From Gordonia tangerina (GTDB taxonomy: Bacteria; Actinomycetota; Actinomycetes; Mycobacteriales; Mycobacteriaceae): DNA of 64,000 nucleotides. This document shows positions 18,300-26,556 of the stretch, one piece after another. Each line of letters begins with the position of its first letter. The first letter of the stretch is position 1. Both the position numbers and the translations under genes were made by a program. The stretch lies in NCBI RefSeq assembly GCF_021556435.1, contig NZ_JAKGCU010000001.1:124001-188000 (forward strand). The letters run 5' to 3'. The notes beneath the pieces were generated by a model. It saw only the letters and a list, made by a program, of their open reading frames with translations. It was not told the DNA's origin and made no database searches.

Positions 18300-18540
18300 C
18301 CACCCCTTCGGCGGTCGAGTAGTCCGAGCCGCCTACCTGTTGGTCGAGTGGTGCGGAGCGGCCCCTTCGGTGGTCGAGTGGTGCGCAGCCGCCCCCTTCG
18401 GTGGCTGAGTGGTGCGCAGCCGCTCCCTTCGGTGATTGAGTGGTGCGCAGCCGCTCCCTTCGGTGGTTGAGTGGTGCGCAGCCGCCCCCTTCGGTGGTCG
18501 AGTAGATCCGAGCCGCTAGGCGAGGAACGTATCGAGACCA
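18300..18540. repeat. Palindromic repeat array with 31-bp tandem period
   Basis: Five tandem copies with TTCGG at 18366, 18397, 18428, 18459 and 18490, a strict 31-bp period; the unit contains CTTCGGTGGTCGAGTGGTGC and GCAGCCGCC. The array is bracketed by ordinary family units GGTCGAGTAG...CGTATCGAGACCACAC. It fills the gap before the nitrilase-type operon. There are no unique spacers, so it is not a CRISPR array. Confidence 0.85.
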
Positions 18541-18756
18541 CACAGCCGCACAGCGGGCCATGTTAACGAAACCCGTGCCGCAATTATTCTCCCGGTAACC
18601 ACCACGCAATAGATCGGGCGTGAACTGAATGTCGTAGCCGCCCGACGGCTACAACCCCGATCTCCGGATCGAATCCTCTTGCGAGGCAGCGTCGCCTCGA
18701 CTTCCGCTAACCGGGTCGACGGCCGTGAACCGTCGTGCCTCATTCTAGGAGACTCC

Positions 18757-19281
18757 GTGCCTACTTTCGACGAGACCATCACCGACAACATCGCCACGTC
18801 ACTCGGTGAGATCCCGCACCCCTCGCTGCCGAAGGGTTCCAACATCTACGGTGGCACCAAGATCTTCCCCGACTACCAGGCCGAGGACGGCGAGACCTAC
18901 TTCACCCTCGTGCACGGCATCGCCCACGAATCGTCGGTGTCGTTCGTCGCGGTTCTGCAGGCCACCCGCGCACTGCGCAAGGGTTTTGAATCTGCCATCT
19001 ACTTCTACGGGCCCGGCGCCATCAATTGCCTTGCCACCCGAGGCTTTCCGAAGACCGGTGACTCCGGCTTCCCGGGTGAGCAGAACATCAACGACTCGCT
19101 GGCAACCTTCATCTCCGAGGGTGGCACCGTGTTCTGCTGCCGCTTCGGTCTGGCCCTGCACGGTGGCCGCGAGGAGGATCTCATCGAAGGCGTGATTCCT
19201 GCCCATCCACTCGATGTCCAGGACGCGATCATCCACTACGCGCGCAAGGGCGCGATCATCAACTCCACCTACATGGTGTGA
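18757..19281 (+). CDS. MSMEG_0572/Sll0783-family nitrogen-starvation protein
   Basis: 174 residues from GTG 18757, with AGGAGA upstream; the frame to 18679 extends into a region without an RBS. First gene of the nitrilase-type cluster. The family name comes from Synechocystis Sll0783, induced on nitrogen starvation. Features: an N-terminal TFDETITDNIATSL, and a well-ordered domain with a putative Cys pair (GTVFCCRFGLALHGG). No catalytic motif is recognised; the fold is probably DsrE-like. It is co-transcribed with the carbon-nitrogen hydrolase 20 bp downstream. Confidence 0.85.
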   Translation: MPTFDETITDNIATSLGEIPHPSLPKGSNIYGGTKIFPDYQAEDGETYFTLVHGIAHESSVSFVAVLQATRALRKGFESAIYFYGPGAINCLATRGFPKTGDSGFPGEQNINDSLATFISEGGTVFCCRFGLALHGGREEDLIEGVIPAHPLDVQDAIIHYARKGAIINSTYMV

Positions 19282-19301: not shown

Positions 19302-20201
19302 ATGACCACCATCGCCGCGGTCGCGGCCAATTTCACCCGCGACCTCGAACAGAACTACGCAACCATCGCCGACTACGTGGTGCAGGCCCGCGAGCGGGGC
19401 GTCGACTTCCTGGTCTTCCCCGAAGCGGCCATCGGCGGCTACCTCTCGTCACTCGGCAATCACGGTGACACCGTCAAGAACGCCAATCGGTCGCTGCCGC
19501 CGGCGATCAGCCTGGATGGGCCGGAAATCCAACGCGTGCAATCGATCATCGGTGACATGGTGATCGCCATCGGCTTCTGCGAGATCGCCGACGACGGGGA
19601 GACCCGCTACAACGCGGCGGCTGTGCTCGACGGCTCGCAGATCTACGGCAGTTATCGCAAGGTGCATCAGCCGCTGGGTGAGAACATGTCGTATTCGTCG
19701 GGAACCGACTACGGCGTATTCGACACCCCGGTCGGACGGGTCGGACTTCAGATCTGTTATGACAAAGCGTTTCCCGAAGCCGCGCGGGTGATGGCACTCA
19801 ACGGGGCCGAGATCATCGCGAGCCTGTCGGCGTGGCCTGCTGCCCGCACGGCCACCGCCGAGAATCTGCAGGACGACCGGTGGACCTACCGGTTCAACCT
19901 GTTCGACACCGCGCGTGCCCTCGACAACCAGGTGTTCTGGATCGCGTCCAACCAATCCGGAACCTTTGGCTCGCTGCGCTACGTCGGCAACGCGAAGATC
20001 GTCGATCCCGGTGGCAATATTCTCGACACCACCCTGCTCGGCAGCGGCATGGCCGTGGCCGACGTCGACATCGCCGGAACCTTCACCGCCATGCGTGGCG
20101 GCATGTTCCACCTGCGGGATCGTCGGCCCGACGCCTACGGCGTACTCACCGAACTCGACGCGACCGGAACCGCACCTTGGCGGGATCTGTCGCATGCCTG
20201 A
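19302..20201 (+). CDS. Carbon-nitrogen hydrolase (nitrilase superfamily), intact triad
   Basis: 299 residues from ATG 19302 (an in-frame GTG at 19278 overlaps the previous stop and is possible). The catalytic triad of the superfamily is complete: Glu41 in FPEAAIGG, Lys120 in YRKVHQPL, Cys152 in LQICYDKAFPE. It is therefore a nitrilase or amidase that forms a thioester with its substrate. It matches MSMEG_0571 in order. In related Nit1C clusters the hydrolase is linked to cyanide/nitrile assimilation in Pseudomonas fluorescens; direct transfer of that role is inference. Confidence 0.88.
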   Translation: MTTIAAVAANFTRDLEQNYATIADYVVQARERGVDFLVFPEAAIGGYLSSLGNHGDTVKNANRSLPPAISLDGPEIQRVQSIIGDMVIAIGFCEIADDGETRYNAAAVLDGSQIYGSYRKVHQPLGENMSYSSGTDYGVFDTPVGRVGLQICYDKAFPEAARVMALNGAEIIASLSAWPAARTATAENLQDDRWTYRFNLFDTARALDNQVFWIASNQSGTFGSLRYVGNAKIVDPGGNILDTTLLGSGMAVADVDIAGTFTAMRGGMFHLRDRRPDAYGVLTELDATGTAPWRDLSHA

Positions 20202-20502
20202 GATGACGTTCACCGTCCGCTGGCCGGACGGCCAAGTGCAGCAATGCTATTCGCCGAGCCTGGTGATGCACGACCACCTTGTCGTCGGGCAACATTATAC
20301 GGTCGACGAGTTCACCAGCCGCGCCACCACGGCACTCGGTGAGGCCGCCGAGCGGGTGCGGGCGAAGTTCGGTTTCGCCTGTACGTCGGCCGCCGCCTCC
20401 GCCGACGACATCATCCGAACCGCGCAACACCACGAACCAGACGCCTCCGTCGAAGTCGTCCGCATGTACCCGCCCCTGCCCATTCCACTGGAGACATCAT
20501 GA
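20194..20502 (+). CDS. MSMEG_0570-family small protein
   Basis: 102 residues from ATG 20194 (MPEMTFTVRWPDG), overlapping the hydrolase by 8 bp; the next gene overlaps its stop (ATGA). Family features: an N-terminal beta pair (VRWPDGQVQQCYSPS), Asp-His at LVMHDHL, then an Ala-rich helix with RVRAKFGFACTSA. No known biochemical activity; always found beside the MSMEG_0569 flavoprotein, so it may be a partner or chaperone. Confidence 0.82.
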   Translation: MPEMTFTVRWPDGQVQQCYSPSLVMHDHLVVGQHYTVDEFTSRATTALGEAAERVRAKFGFACTSAAASADDIIRTAQHHEPDASVEVVRMYPPLPIPLETS

Positions 20503-21776
20503 GCGCTCCCGCTCATCACCCCGTCGTGATCATCGGCGCCGGCCAGGCCGGACTCTCGGTCAGCTGGTACCTCGGTAACGCCGGCATCGACCACCTTGTC
20601 GTCGAAGCAGAGACCCCCACCCACGCCTGGGCCGACTCACGCTGGGACAACTTCACTCTCGTCACCCCCAACTGGCATTGTCGACTACCCGGCTACACCT
20701 ACGACGGCCCTGACCCGGACGGCTTCATGACCCGCGACGAGGTGGTCGATTGGCTCGCGGGCTGGCTCGACACCTTCGATCCGCCGGTACGCACCCACAC
20801 CAGGGTCACCCGGCTGCGCCGGCCCGGCCATAGCGGCTTCGAACTCACCCTGGCCGGCTCCGACGGTGTGGAACTGGTGACCTGTGACCAGGTGGTGATC
20901 GCCACCGGCGGCTACCCACTGCCGGTCATCCCGCCCTACGCGTCGTCACTCGACCAGTCGATCACCCAGATCCACTCCGAGCAGTACTTCAATTCCGAGC
21001 AGCTCCCCGACGGTGCGGTGCTCGTCGTCGGCTCCGGCCAGTCCGGGGCGCAGATCGCCGAAGACCTGCACCTGGCCGGCCGGCAGGTACACCTGGCCAT
21101 CGGCAACGCGCCGCGCGTGGCCCGCTTCTACCGGGGCCGCGACTGCATGACCTGGCTCGCCGACATGGGACTCTACGACACACCCGCCCAAGAGTATCCG
21201 GGAGGCAAAGCCGCGCAGGAGAAAACGAATCATTACGTGACCGGCCGCGACGGGGGTCGGGATGTGGATCTGCGCCAGTTCGCCGCCGAGGGCATGCAGC
21301 TTTACGGCACCCTGACCGACGGCAAGGACACAGCGCTGCGGTTCGCCCCGACTCTGACCACAGCCCTGGACAAGGCCGATTCCGTCTACAACTCCATCTG
21401 CGCCGACATCGACCGCCACATCGAAGCCGCCGGCATCGACGCCCCACCACCGACTCGCTACGAACCGGTGTGGACACCCGAGGCCGATCCCACCGAGCTC
21501 GACCTCACCGATGCCGGCATCACCAGCATCGTGTGGGCCATCGGGTTTCGACCCGACTACCGGTGGATCGAGGTCAGCGCGTTCGACGGCGGCGGTCGGC
21601 CCATGCAGACCCGCGGCGTCACCCAGGTGCCCGGTCTGAGCTTCATCGGTCTGCCGTGGATGCACACCTGGGGTTCGGGCCGGTTCCTGGGCATCGAGCG
21701 CGACGCCCGACATGTCGCCGACACCATCATCGACGGCCTGCGCGCCACTGCTCCGCGCCTTGCCGCTGTCCGGTAG
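20499..21776 (+). CDS. MSMEG_0569-family flavin-dependent oxidoreductase
   Basis: 425 residues. Two dinucleotide folds typical of FAD/NADPH monooxygenases: VVIIGAGQAGLSVSWYL at residues 7-23 for FAD, and VLVVGSGQSGAQIAEDL near 175 for NADPH. An ATG motif (VVIATGGYP) lies between them. Sequence style is like flavin-containing/Baeyer-Villiger monooxygenases, but the cluster assignment is better than the substrate guess. Probably oxidises the nitrogen-containing intermediate made or used by the radical SAM protein and hydrolase. Confidence 0.87.
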   Translation: MSAPAHHPVVIIGAGQAGLSVSWYLGNAGIDHLVVEAETPTHAWADSRWDNFTLVTPNWHCRLPGYTYDGPDPDGFMTRDEVVDWLAGWLDTFDPPVRTHTRVTRLRRPGHSGFELTLAGSDGVELVTCDQVVIATGGYPLPVIPPYASSLDQSITQIHSEQYFNSEQLPDGAVLVVGSGQSGAQIAEDLHLAGRQVHLAIGNAPRVARFYRGRDCMTWLADMGLYDTPAQEYPGGKAAQEKTNHYVTGRDGGRDVDLRQFAAEGMQLYGTLTDGKDTALRFAPTLTTALDKADSVYNSICADIDRHIEAAGIDAPPPTRYEPVWTPEADPTELDLTDAGITSIVWAIGFRPDYRWIEVSAFDGGGRPMQTRGVTQVPGLSFIGLPWMHTWGSGRFLGIERDARHVADTIIDGLRATAPRLAAVR

Positions 21777-21788
21777 GCAGGCTATCCG

Positions 21789-21938
21789 ATGGCACGCCAA
21801 CCGATCTCTCACCTACCTGACCGCACAAGTCTGGCCCATCGACCACTCCGCAACGACGCGGGCAAGATCCGCCGGCGGTCGCTGACCGGCTGCAGCCCGG
21901 AACTGGCGACCCTGCACGTGAACGGAGTACCCACATGA
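21789..21938 (+). CDS. Possible 49-residue ORF ahead of the radical SAM gene
   Basis: ATG 21789, with GGCAGG a few bases upstream; the stop TGA is embedded in the ATGA that starts the radical SAM gene. It begins 12 bp after the flavoprotein stop and fills the only sizeable gap in the operon. The composition is Arg-rich (GKIRRRSLTGC) with one Cys. Third-position GC (~65%) is lower than in neighbouring genes, which weakens the case. No homologue recognised. It may be translated only to couple ribosomes to the next gene. Confidence 0.3.
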   Translation: MARQPISHLPDRTSLAHRPLRNDAGKIRRRSLTGCSPELATLHVNGVPT

Positions 21939-22990
21939 CCGTGTCCACCCGAGTCGACCTCGCCCTGCTCGGTATCCGCGGCACCCCGCCGGTCAATCGC
22001 ACCGGCGGCGCCGGACCGTCCGACGACGGTCACTTGCTGATCGATGGCCTCAACGCTGCGATACCACGAAACCCGAACAGTCCATTCATCTTCGACGGCG
22101 ACCGCGTTCTATTCGACGGTGTCGACGCGGGTGTCGAGGTGGCGACGATCGGGCGGCCCCGCTTCTACGATCTCACCACCGACGACGGGGTGCCGTATGA
22201 GCAGATCGCCAAACTGCACGGCGCCGACGTGCTGGCCACCACCGTGGTACAGACCTGCATCCGCTACGCAGAAGACCAGCGCTGCCGCTTCTGCTCTATC
22301 GAGGAATCGCTGCGGTCCGGGGCGACAGTGGCGGTGAAGAAACCCGAGCAGCTCGCCGACGTGGCCCGCGCCGCCGTCGAACTCGACGGGATCACCCAGA
22401 TGGTGATGACCACCGGGACGTCGAACGGTAAGGACCGCGGCGCCAAGCATCTCGCGCGCTGCGTGCGGGCGGTGAAGGCGGCCGTGCCGGATCTCCCCAT
22501 CCAGGTGCAGTGTGAACCGCCCGCCGACCTCGTCACCATCACCGACCTCCGGGACGCCGGCGCCGACGCGATCGGCATCCACGTCGAATCCCTCGACGAC
22601 GACGTACGCCGACGCTGGATGCCCGGCAAGGCGACGGTGTCCCTGGACGATTACCGCGCCGCTTGGGCCGAGGCGGTGCGGGTGTTCGGCCGCAACCAGG
22701 TGTCCACGTACCTGCTCGTCGGTCTGGGCGATAACCCCGACGAGATGATCGCCGGCGCCAAAGAACTCGCCGACACCGGCGTCTACCCGTTCATCGTGCC
22801 GTTCCGGCCGCACGCAGGCACCCTCGCGGTGGACGTGGACCATGCTGCCGGGCCCGACCCAGCCATCGTCGAGAAGATCAGTCGCGAGGTCGCCGTGCAC
22901 CTGCAGTGGATCGGGATGACCGGCTCCGAGCAACGTGCCGGCTGTGCCGCCTGCGGGGCCTGCGGCGTCCTGCAGAACGTGGGAGGCTGA
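21935..22990 (+). CDS. MSMEG_0568-family radical SAM protein
   Basis: 351 residues. The iron-sulfur site is an unusual CX8CX2C: Cys108, Cys117 and Cys120 (CIRYAEDQRCRFC), instead of CX3CX2C. A TIM-barrel core follows, with TGTSNGKDRG, QCEPPADL and a GIHVESLDD strand. The C-terminus carries three more Cys in CX2CX2C (337, 340, 343), which could hold a second cluster. It belongs to the cluster core with the flavoprotein and hydrolase. Reaction unknown. Confidence 0.87.
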   Translation: MTVSTRVDLALLGIRGTPPVNRTGGAGPSDDGHLLIDGLNAAIPRNPNSPFIFDGDRVLFDGVDAGVEVATIGRPRFYDLTTDDGVPYEQIAKLHGADVLATTVVQTCIRYAEDQRCRFCSIEESLRSGATVAVKKPEQLADVARAAVELDGITQMVMTTGTSNGKDRGAKHLARCVRAVKAAVPDLPIQVQCEPPADLVTITDLRDAGADAIGIHVESLDDDVRRRWMPGKATVSLDDYRAAWAEAVRVFGRNQVSTYLLVGLGDNPDEMIAGAKELADTGVYPFIVPFRPHAGTLAVDVDHAAGPDPAIVEKISREVAVHLQWIGMTGSEQRAGCAACGACGVLQNVGG

Positions 22991-22993
22991 CCG

Positions 22994-24430
22994 ATGCTGG
23001 ACGGCACCCACACGATGATCCCGGCGCTGCGGCCATCCGGCGACCTGTCGATCTTGGCCGGCACCCGAGGCCGCCCCATGCCGCCGTACCTGATCCAAGT
23101 GGTCGACACACCCGACAAGTTGTCCTCGTATCACGCGCTGCGCCACCGCGAATTCGTCGAGCGACAGGGTCTTTTCGACCGCACCGATCGTGACGACACC
23201 GACGACGATCCACGTGCTGTGGTGCTCGCCGCCGTGACCGGCGACGGCACGCTGATCGGGGGCGTGCGGGTGGCGCCGTGCACCGCCACCGACATCGGCT
23301 GGTGGTCGGGCAGCCGACTCGTTGTCGCCGACCCGGCGCACGCCGCCGGTATCGGCGCCGCGCTGGTTCGCGCCGCATGCGCCTACGTGGAGTCCGTTGG
23401 GGTGGTGCGGTTCGACGCGACCGTGCAGGACCGCTACGCGGGGATGTTCCGCACCCTCGGCTGGGAGGACCGCGCTGCGGGCCCGACACTCGCCGGACGT
23501 GCCCACCGCGAGATGCGGTGGCCCATCGGGCACATCCAGCAGACCGCCGACTCCACCAAAGCCATTCTCGCCGACGTTCTCGCTCCACTCGGTCGGCAGC
23601 CGGGAGGATTGGGTCCCAGTGGCTTCCGCGGCGACGACGGTGTGCCGGTACCCGAGTCCGACGTGATCGCTGCCTGCGACGCCATCCTGCCGGCCATGGT
23701 CGACCGCGACCCGGAATGGGCGGGCTGGTGTTCGGTGCTGGTCAACCTCAACGATCTCACCGCGATGGGTGCCGCACCCCTGGGCTTGCTCGATGCCGTT
23801 GCCGCGCCGACCCGATCACATCTGACCCGCATCATGCGAGGTGTCGCCTCGGCCGCGCAGGCGTGGCGGGCGCCCGTGCTCGGTGGGCACACCCAGTTGG
23901 GTGTGCACGCGTCGCTGTCGGTCACGGCGCTGGGTCGCACCGCGAGACCGGTCCCGGCCGGCGGCGGCCGGGTCGGCGACACCGTCTCGCTGATCGCAGA
24001 CCTCGGCGGCGGCTGGCGACCCGGCTACCACGGACGGCAATGGGACTCCAGCAGCGCACGATCCGCCGACGAACTCGCCGACATGGCCGGACTGATCCGA
24101 CGACTGCAGCCGGCCGCGGCCAAGGACGTCAGCATGGCCGGCGTTGCCGGGACTCTCGGCATGCTGGCCGAGGCGTCCGGGACGGGCGCCGAACTCGATG
24201 TCGCCGCGATCCCGCGGCCGACCGACGCGAGTATGGGCAACTGGCTCACCTGCTTCCCCGGTTACGCGATGCTGGTGGCAGATCGGCATGCGCACGACAC
24301 CGTTGCCGGGCCCACCGTCGGCGCATCGTGCGGACGGCTGACCGGTGACCCGGGTGTGCGACTACGCTGGCCCGACGGTGAGGTGACGGTCGCCGTCGCA
24401 TCCACGGTCACCGGATTGGGCGCCGCGTGA
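22994..24430 (+). CDS. MSMEG_0567-family fusion: GNAT acetyltransferase plus AIR synthase-like domain
   Basis: 478 residues. Residues 1-~185 are a GNAT-type N-acetyltransferase (LSSYHALRHREFVERQGLF, RVAPCTATDIGWWSGSRLVVADPAHAAGIGAALVRAACAY as the acetyl-CoA loop). Residues ~190-478 are an AIR synthase/ThiL-like ATP-binding domain (LVNLNDLTAMGAAPLGLLDA, HTQLGVHASLSVTALGR, KDVSMAGVAGTLGMLAEASG). In Synechocystis these are two genes, sll0786 and sll0787; here one chain. It suggests acyl transfer followed by ATP-driven activation of an amide or carboxylate. Three bases separate it from the radical SAM gene. Confidence 0.85.
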   Translation: MLDGTHTMIPALRPSGDLSILAGTRGRPMPPYLIQVVDTPDKLSSYHALRHREFVERQGLFDRTDRDDTDDDPRAVVLAAVTGDGTLIGGVRVAPCTATDIGWWSGSRLVVADPAHAAGIGAALVRAACAYVESVGVVRFDATVQDRYAGMFRTLGWEDRAAGPTLAGRAHREMRWPIGHIQQTADSTKAILADVLAPLGRQPGGLGPSGFRGDDGVPVPESDVIAACDAILPAMVDRDPEWAGWCSVLVNLNDLTAMGAAPLGLLDAVAAPTRSHLTRIMRGVASAAQAWRAPVLGGHTQLGVHASLSVTALGRTARPVPAGGGRVGDTVSLIADLGGGWRPGYHGRQWDSSSARSADELADMAGLIRRLQPAAAKDVSMAGVAGTLGMLAEASGTGAELDVAAIPRPTDASMGNWLTCFPGYAMLVADRHAHDTVAGPTVGASCGRLTGDPGVRLRWPDGEVTVAVASTVTGLGAA

Positions 24431-24445
24431 GTAGAGTCCGATGAC

Positions 24446-25276
24446 ATGACCACGGTCACGCTGGGCGCCCTCGCGGCGCATTTCGGACGCGATGTCCACC
24501 GCGGCGTGTCCAAAGCGGTGGGCATCATCGAAGCCGCCAGGCGAGATGGCGTCGATCTGCTCGTCTTCCCGGACGCCTCGATCGGCGGCTACATCGGCGA
24601 CCTGCGTCGGCCCGACACCACCGAGTTGCCGCCGACACTCGATCCCGACGGTCCCGAACTCGCGGCCATCGCCGCAGCCGCCGGTGCGATGACAGTCTGC
24701 ATCGGGTATACCGAAGCGGCAGAAGGCAAGCGCTACAACAGTGCCGTGTGCCTGTCCGGCGACGGCGTTCTCGGCAGGCATCGCAAGGTGCATCAGCCGG
24801 CGGGAGAGTCGCTCGCCTACGCTGCCGGAGAGTCGTTCTGCGCCTTCGATACCCCGGTGGGTCGAATGGGCATGCTGATCGACTACGACAAGACCTTCCC
24901 GGAATCGGCCCGCACGCTCGCCCTGGATGGTGCGCGGATCATCGCCACCCTCAACGCCTGGCCGGCCAGTGTCACCGACCGGGCGGCACGACTGCCCGCC
25001 GACCGTCAGTCACGGTTGTTCGACCTGTACGACTGTGCGCGCGCCGCCGAGAACCAGGTGTTTGTGGTGTCGTCGAACCTGACCGGTGTCACCGGCTCCC
25101 TGCGATTCCTGGGGCAGGCCAAGGTCGTCGGGCCGGGCGGCGATGTCCTGGCCAATACCCGATCCAAGGGCGGCCTGGCCAAGGTGGACGTGGATGTGAC
25201 CGCCGAGATCACTCGCGCCCGCAAGGTTCTCAACCACCTCGCGGAACTCAAGAGCGAAGCCTACGGACGCCGATGA
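24446..25276 (+). CDS. MSMEG_0566-type carbon-nitrogen hydrolase homologue, triad lost
   Basis: 276 residues, clearly paralogous to the hydrolase at 19302 (same HRKVHQP, TFPESARTLALDGA and NQVFVVSSN blocks). The catalytic residues differ: Glu is Asp43 (FPDASIGG), Lys114 is kept, and the nucleophile Cys is Asp146 (MLIDYDKTFPE; codon GAC at 24889-24891). Without a Cys it cannot act as a normal nitrilase or amidase. It may be a regulatory or structural partner of the active hydrolase, or have evolved another activity. The reading frame is intact and conserved in surrounding residues, so it is not simply decaying. Confidence 0.85.
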   Translation: MTTVTLGALAAHFGRDVHRGVSKAVGIIEAARRDGVDLLVFPDASIGGYIGDLRRPDTTELPPTLDPDGPELAAIAAAAGAMTVCIGYTEAAEGKRYNSAVCLSGDGVLGRHRKVHQPAGESLAYAAGESFCAFDTPVGRMGMLIDYDKTFPESARTLALDGARIIATLNAWPASVTDRAARLPADRQSRLFDLYDCARAAENQVFVVSSNLTGVTGSLRFLGQAKVVGPGGDVLANTRSKGGLAKVDVDVTAEITRARKVLNHLAELKSEAYGRR

Positions 25277-26400
25277 CCATGCGTATCGCCCTGCTCACGT
25301 ACTCCACCAAGCCGCGCGGCGGCGTCGTTCATACGCTCAACCTCGCCGAGGCGCTGAGCCGCCACGGCGCCGAGGTCACAGTGTGGAGTCTCGCCCGCGG
25401 CGGCGACGACGGCTTTTTCCGCCAGATCGACCCGACGGTGACGCAGCGGCTCATCCCGTTCGCCGACGTTGCCGACAAGACCATCACCGAGCGGATCGTG
25501 CGCTCCATCGAGACCCTGCGTCACGCGTTCGACCCGAGTGCCTACGACATCGTGCACGCGCAAGATTGCATCAGCGCCAACGCTGTCGGAACATGCATCC
25601 GCACCATTCATCATCTCGACCAGTTCACCACCCCGATCCTGGTGGAATGCCACGAGAAGGCCGTCGTCAACCCGTACGCGCACATCTGTGTGTCCCGGGC
25701 GGTCGCCCACGAGGTGCACGGCGGTTGGGGATTATCGCCGACGGTGATACCGAATGGCGTTGACTACCAGCGGTTCCACGATGCGGCTGCTCCCGCCGCT
25801 ACGGAGGATCGTCGACGATGGCGCGAGCGGCTCGGGCCGTATGTGCTCGCGGTCGGCGGTATCGAACCGCGCAAGGGCAGCATCGATCTTCTGGAGGCCT
25901 ACGCCGCGCTGCGGCAGCAGAATCCCGATCTGGCTTTGGTTTTCGCGGGTGGTGAAACGCTGTTCGACTACCGTGACTATCGGGCCGAGTTCGAGCGTCG
26001 GCAAGCCGAACTCGGGGTGGAGCCGGTCGTGCTGGGCCCGGTGGCCGACGACGCCCTGCCCGCCCTGGTCGCCGGGTGCGAGGTCTTCGCATTCCCGTCG
26101 ACGAAGGAAGGTTTCGGTCTCGCGGCCATGGAGGCGCTGGCCGCAGGTCGTCCGGTGGTCGCCCGCGAACTCCCCATCCTGCGCGAGGTGTTCGGCGACA
26201 CCGTCACCTATGCCGCCGACCTCGACGCGCTGGCCACGCAGCTACACGCGGCGCGCACCTCCCATCCCGGCCGGCGCGCAGCCGGTGAAGCGCTGGCCAG
26301 GTCGCTCACCTGGGACAACGCCGCCCAAGCGCACCTCGAGTTCTATGCGGCGCATCCCTACCCTGTCGGTGGCCGTGGTCTCGATACGGTCCTCGCCTAG
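25273..26400 (+). CDS. MSMEG_0565-family glycosyltransferase (GT4)
   Basis: 375 residues; ATG 25273 overlaps the previous stop (ATGA). GT-B fold: N-terminal domain MRIALLTYSTKPRGGVVHTLNLAEALSRHGAEV, the hinge IPNGVDYQRF, and the nucleotide-sugar motif FPSTKEGFGLAAMEALAAG (E-x7-E type) near 295-313. It probably glycosylates the cluster product or a cell-envelope lipid. The last residues (GLDTVLA) are read from a palindromic repeat that also supplies the TAG stop, so the native C-terminus may have been replaced. Confidence 0.86.
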   Translation: MTMRIALLTYSTKPRGGVVHTLNLAEALSRHGAEVTVWSLARGGDDGFFRQIDPTVTQRLIPFADVADKTITERIVRSIETLRHAFDPSAYDIVHAQDCISANAVGTCIRTIHHLDQFTTPILVECHEKAVVNPYAHICVSRAVAHEVHGGWGLSPTVIPNGVDYQRFHDAAAPAATEDRRRWRERLGPYVLAVGGIEPRKGSIDLLEAYAALRQQNPDLALVFAGGETLFDYRDYRAEFERRQAELGVEPVVLGPVADDALPALVAGCEVFAFPSTKEGFGLAAMEALAAGRPVVARELPILREVFGDTVTYAADLDALATQLHAARTSHPGRRAAGEALARSLTWDNAAQAHLEFYAAHPYPVGGRGLDTVLA

Positions 26401-26556
26401 CGGCTCGTCCCTACTCGACCACCGAATGGGTGAGTCACTTCCGTCGGTGGTCGATCTCGATACGCCGCTCACTACGGTCGCGGCGTCTCGAACCGTTCTC
26501 GTCGGTGGTCGAGTAGTGTCGAGCCGCTAGGCGAGAGACGTATCGAGACCACGTGA
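26372..26556. repeat. Palindromic repeat block after the nitrilase-type operon
   Basis: Contains GGTCTCGATACG-type left arms at 26375 and 26455, and right arms GGTGGTCGAGTAG (about 26504) and CGTATCGAGACCAC (about 26538). The first arm overlaps the glycosyltransferase 3' end. The operon is thus bracketed by this family on both sides (18300-18540 and here). Confidence 0.85.

Follow-up and report, generated by a model that had tools for sequence, protein, structure and literature searches.

An invariant aspartate at the nucleophile site of a nitrilase-fold paralogue in actinobacterial gpr-like gene clusters

The gpr and Nit1C clusters and the locus in Gordonia tangerina

The textbook active site of the nitrilase superfamily is a Glu-Lys-Cys triad. 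Among described systems, the gpr cluster of Mycobacterium smegmatis (MSMEG_0565–0572) is induced by GlnR, raises the NADPH/NADP ratio and provides peroxide resistance; complementation was not obtained with single genes (PMC6039565). During nitrogen starvation, MSMEG_0571 was induced 48-fold and MSMEG_0566 9-fold (PMC4222082), and the latter has been called an aliphatic amidase, possibly feeding nitrogen assimilation (PMC4222082, PMC6039565). The Nit1C cluster of cyanobacteria and proteobacteria, with the nitrilase NitC/Nit6803 (TIGR04048), shares the MSMEG_0572-, radical SAM, GNAT, AIRS-like and flavoprotein families with the locus described here (PMC1199592).

The 64,000-nucleotide stretch of Gordonia tangerina DNA analysed here (the window) contains eight genes on the forward strand that all match the gpr cluster and are partly related to Nit1C. 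The first encodes an MSMEG_0572/Sll0783 family protein (18679..19281; TIGR04044, 256 bits), whose match begins at residue 44 and whose true start is probably downstream. It is followed by a first CN hydrolase of the MSMEG_0571 type, designated as H1 (19302..20201; Pfam CN_hydrolase, E = 8e-44), an MSMEG_0570 family protein (20191..20502; TIGR04042), an MSMEG_0569 family flavin-dependent oxidoreductase (20499..21776; TIGR04046, 657 bits), an MSMEG_0568 family radical SAM protein (21935..22990; TIGR04043) and MSMEG_0567, a fusion of GNAT and AIR-synthase-like parts (22994..24430; TIGR04045 and TIGR04050). The second CN hydrolase, H2 (24446..25276), comes next, and its stop overlaps or abuts the start of an MSMEG_0565 family glycosyltransferase (GT4) at 25273..26400 (TIGR04047). 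The gpr-cluster families around H2 score above their cut-offs in the window, related loci carry the same gene set, and the best homologues are from Gordonia (82–88%).

The operon is flanked by 56-nt inverted repeats of 91% identity (18486–18541, 26375–26430 and 26502–26553), and a tandem array of 31 bp × 6.6 (18303–18503) also brackets it. The flanking element is dispersed, with 52 matches in the G. tangerina genome.

A published proposal describes MSMEG_0571 as a selenoprotein via TGA read-through (PMC6039565). The stop codon of H1 in the window lies at 20199–20201. A conserved selenocysteine in the H1 family was not supported because 6 of 114 distinct homologues end in TAG, and among the 108 that end in TGA only a minority have a read-through of at least 500 residues.

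Residues, distribution and origin of H2

H2 (276 residues) is 47% identical to H1. Codon reading confirmed the open reading frame and the residues reported in the initial annotation (Asp43, Lys114 and Asp146 in H2; Glu41, Lys120 and Cys152 in H1), but the nucleophile codon GAC is located at 24881..24883 and not, as had been given, at 24889–24891. With the second glutamate included, the active-site set is Asp43-Lys114-Glu121-Asp146 in H2 and Glu41-Lys120-Glu127-Cys152 in H1, whose Cys152 is encoded by TGT at 19755–19757. Asp146 aligns with the catalytic cysteine of the PH0642 amidase (Cys146) and of the N-carbamoylputrescine amidohydrolase MtCPA (Cys158). The catalytic-site lysine, Lys114 (AAG, 24785..24787), is kept, as is Glu121 (24806..24808), the equivalent of Glu132 in MtCPA, while Asp43 (GAC, 24572..24574) occupies the site of the former general-base Glu.

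A full-length CN-hydrolase (nitrilase) fold in an intact frame is indicated for H2 by Pfam (CN_hydrolase, PF00795; E = 5e-35, 121.5 bits against a gathering score of 23.2) and by an AlphaFold2 model (pLDDT 95.9, pTM 0.94). The top Foldseek match of the model was the PH0642 amidase (E = 2e-23), N-carbamoylputrescine amidohydrolase was also among the best solved matches, and TM values to solved superfamily members were about 0.8. No NCBIfam model matched H2 above its cut-off. H2 is thus a member of the CN hydrolase/nitrilase superfamily by fold, but the H2 family has neither the Cys nucleophile at the elbow nor a general-base Glu; Lys114 is invariant and Glu121 was found in 55 of 56 thinned sequences.

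Homologues were searched for with the peptide MGMLIDYD, which contains the Asp and yielded 80 loci from genome contigs, and with profiles built from a mixed Asp/Cys alignment on 395 genomes of the class and 397 of the phylum, which provide a fair test. A search bias from the Asp-containing peptide was rejected, since the whole-genome profile searches agree. H2 homologues came from many actinobacterial families, and one came from a genome of another class of the phylum (G735). A plasmid search located a homologue at 69–74% on four Rhodococcus plasmids. Two loci filed under other phyla (L013 and L075) are probably misbinned contigs because they have 72–74% GC and typical actinobacterial clusters.

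Every H2 homologue recovered has both Asp146 and Lys114. Among 111 distinct coding sequences, codon 146 is GAC in 107 and GAT in 4, with no Cys. Site 43 is less uniform, with Asp (GAC/GAT) in 98 sequences, Gly in 7, His in 4 and Tyr and Gln in one each, so the initial description of the general base as Asp holds for the window copy and for the commonest state and does not extend to the family as a whole. The H1 homologues with the region covered have Glu-Lys-Glu-Cys throughout; one partial frame (L045) was scored as -EEC.

A tree of 56 Asp and 61 Cys sequences was calculated with columns 43 and 146 removed, by a quick search run without bootstrap. The Asp sequences form one side of a single branch (SH-aLRT 98) with one change. 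Because the Asp clade nests among Cys sequences when two distant Cys sequences are used as the outgroup, the direction from Cys to Asp is likely. In several families H1 and H2 lie in tandem ahead of the glycosyltransferase gene, and in many clusters without H2 it is H1 that directly precedes this gene; tandem duplication is therefore the simplest origin of H2. To judge from the tree, Cys was swapped for Asp once, in an ancient paralogue, and the swap has been retained since.

That the window copy lacks two catalytic residues would also be expected of a degenerating pseudogene or a sequencing error. With Asp at all 111 codons, intact frames, a dN/dS of about 0.1 and a conservation higher than that of H1, such an explanation has practically no probability, and a local mutation, a pseudogene and an error are all refuted by the orthologues. 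Within Gordonia, dN/dS was 0.099 for H2 and 0.097 for H1, and the mean pairwise identities across 49 thinned genomes were 0.69 for H2, 0.64 for H1 and 0.72 for the radical SAM protein. The initial proposal of a conserved nitrilase-fold protein under purifying selection with no Cys nucleophile is borne out by these values, and the observation that it had named as its own refutation, Cys in the orthologues, did not occur. The H2 family is a genuine variant of the nitrilase fold that is old, arose once and is widely conserved.

The pocket of H2, its partners and its possible function

Twelve pocket sites were defined, largely after the published MtCPA structure (PMC4812014), with site 188 added and the base site excluded. 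Their mean entropy was 0.06 bit in the Asp clade (1.00 elsewhere in the protein) and 0.26 in the Cys clade (1.26 elsewhere); the pocket of the Asp clade is thus the tighter, in a comparison that takes in sites conserved across the superfamily. Fixed differences between the Asp and Cys clades are Asp146/Cys, Thr150/Ala, Gln188/Trp, Leu191/Arg, Ala201/Leu, Leu222/Val, Leu262/Met and Glu267/Asp. In MtCPA, Trp162 holds the catalytic water and Glu187 sets the specificity (PMC4812014). Thr150 of H2 aligns with Trp162 in the catalytic-water niche, and Ser175 aligns with Glu187, where Ser is common in the Cys clade too. As read from the alignments, the pocket of H2 was altered and then held rather than released, release being confined to the proton-acceptor site. 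The conserved residues could alternatively serve structural packing or a dimer interface beside the pocket.

Classical Glu-Lys-Cys hydrolysis has probably been lost in H2 with the pocket still in use, and thioester chemistry is not expected because the Cys is absent and the base is not fixed (for the established mechanism, see PMC4812014). A carboxylate that is invariant opposite Lys114 would be charged like a thiolate but not reactive like one, and for this reason we tentatively favour a non-hydrolytic, ligand-holding role, in which a re-tooled pocket would bind a pathway intermediate. In this reading, the operon's CN hydrolase would have been duplicated long ago in Actinomycetota and the Cys at the nucleophile elbow of one copy replaced once by Asp, with loss of amide or nitrile hydrolysis, and the Asp146-Lys114-Glu121 core and the surrounding pocket would have become fixed for one intermediate of a gpr/Nit1C-like nitrogen-starvation pathway. 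Asp146 may take the place of the thiolate and, paired with Lys114, supply a permanent negative charge, so that the ligand would be held with no thioester formed and presented to a partner, for which the glycosyltransferase of the adjacent overlapping gene or the flavoprotein is the most plausible candidate. The invariance of Asp146 and Lys114 against the drift at site 43, the single origin on the tree, the frozen pocket with its clade-specific residues, the low dN/dS, the intact fold, the spacing of H2 to the glycosyltransferase gene and an orphan H2 (see below) were counted for this role. The initial annotation had also suggested a repurposed active site that binds metal or acts as a carboxylate nucleophile; carboxylate or other altered chemistry is possible, and metal binding received no specific support.

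The same pocket can be read as that of a working enzyme. In the alpha/beta-hydrolase fold, switching the nucleophile to Asp gave rise to dehalogenases and epoxide hydrolases, and by analogy Asp146 may act as a carboxylate nucleophile or general base. Such catalysis would explain why site 146 tolerates Asp alone, why Lys114 (oxyanion/acid) and Glu121 are retained, and why the catalytic-water niche is altered in one consistent way (Thr150). The variable general-base site (Asp, Gly, His, Tyr or Gln) is awkward for an activated-water mechanism, however, and the invariant Asp is equally explicable as structural. Moreover, no superfamily member with an Asp nucleophile turned up in the library of open-access papers that was searched. 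A nitrilase-fold pseudoenzyme was not found there either. We consider an active H2 unlikely on this evidence, and less likely still a natural nucleophile switch at the elbow by which H2 would turn over a gpr-pathway intermediate as its substrate.

According to the initial annotation, H2 may serve the first hydrolase as a scaffold or allosteric subunit. H2 would then be a catalytically dead subunit that activates, stabilises or re-specifies H1 in a hetero-oligomer. In the class sample of 49 genomes with the radical SAM gene and a CN hydrolase of the H1/H2 kind, both hydrolases (two matches, with residues read in the sequences retrieved) were present in 33 and H1 only in 16; no cluster with H2 lacked H1 (33 of 33). 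This dependence counts against the ligand-holding role to the extent that it fits a subunit as well. H1 and H2 are also paralogues and often tandem neighbours, nitrilase-fold proteins are built from dimers with shared active-site entrances (PMC4812014), and precedents such as the trypanosome AdoMetDC prozyme and the sorghum NIT4A/NIT4B2 heteromer are described in PMC5154151, PMC5201418 and PMC3663545. The partial correlations of evolutionary rates were nevertheless only 0.18 for H1–H2, against 0.46 for H1–flavoprotein, 0.33 for H2–radical SAM and 0.29 for H2–glycosyltransferase, and the mirror-tree test of H1 and H2 gave ordinary covariation once the other operon genes were accounted for, an uninformative to negative result. 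Between the operons of Gordonia and those of Rhodococcus and Nocardia, H2 is 69–77% identical and H1 only 57–61%; from the Gordonia-type to the Rhodococcus-type operon, divergence is shared by H1 and the flavoprotein but not by H2. The distance from H2 to the glycosyltransferase gene is −25 to +74 bases in 121 of 123 loci (starts being approximate). An isolated and intact Asp-type H2 (L116:6342-7205) occurs in a genome (G028) that has no H1, radical SAM gene, flavoprotein or other cluster gene, although it could be a remnant, and a pure scaffold would not need a frozen pocket. An H1–H2 complex is possible and fits the co-occurrence, but the rate, divergence and glycosyltransferase-linkage results do not favour it, and we regard a dead subunit as doubtful, less likely than the ligand-holding role but somewhat likelier than catalysis by Asp, the proposal in the initial annotation having gained no specific support.

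The flavoprotein family was present in 32 of the 33 genomes with H2 and in 2 of the 16 without (p = 2.5e-9); when counted by genus, the co-occurrence is weak (p = 0.07, few genera).

Some further loci differ in composition. H1 and the flavoprotein seem to be exchanged as one unit among operon types (L078, L024, L020 and others); the Curtobacterium locus (L078) has a Gordonia-type H1 (74%) and a less similar H2 (65%), and two clusters (L117 and L126) have H1 and the flavoprotein without H2, natural test cases for its dispensability. In six class genomes (G051, G068, G027, G213, G221 and G352), the MSMEG_0568 radical SAM homologue is more distant (E = 1e-111 to 1e-118) and there is no H1/H2-type CN hydrolase at E ≤ 1e-40. 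Their clusters are possibly true Nit1C.

Comparison with known systems

The solved enzymes PH0642 (1j31, 6ypa) and MtCPA (5h8i) have the fold, the Lys and the second Glu in common with H2 at about 22–27% identity, and differ from it in the Cys nucleophile, which is Asp in H2, and in the general-base Glu, which H2 has lost. The AdoMetDC prozyme and the trypanosomatid DHS subunit, as presented in PMC5201418 and PMC3663545, resemble the H1/H2 idea in that a dead paralogue is kept with an active one. Their folds are unrelated to that of H2, and complex formation has been shown for them.

H2 was likened to MSMEG_0566 of M. smegmatis solely by the NCBIfam operon composition and its place beside MSMEG_0565. 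The active-site residues of the H2 family argue against the published amidase role: for a clade that is widespread in actinobacteria, invariably has Asp and is under strong selection in a cluster for nitrogen starvation and peroxide resistance, the amidase label used in published mycobacterial work is probably wrong. Asp146 offers one clean residue for probing what the gpr/Nit1C-like pathway does. Described Nit1C clusters have a single Cys nitrilase, whereas the present locus has two CN hydrolases of another branch, one of them without the Cys; against the curated TIGR04048 cut-off of 502.6 bits, the two hydrolases of the window score 41.8 and, for H2, 27.4.
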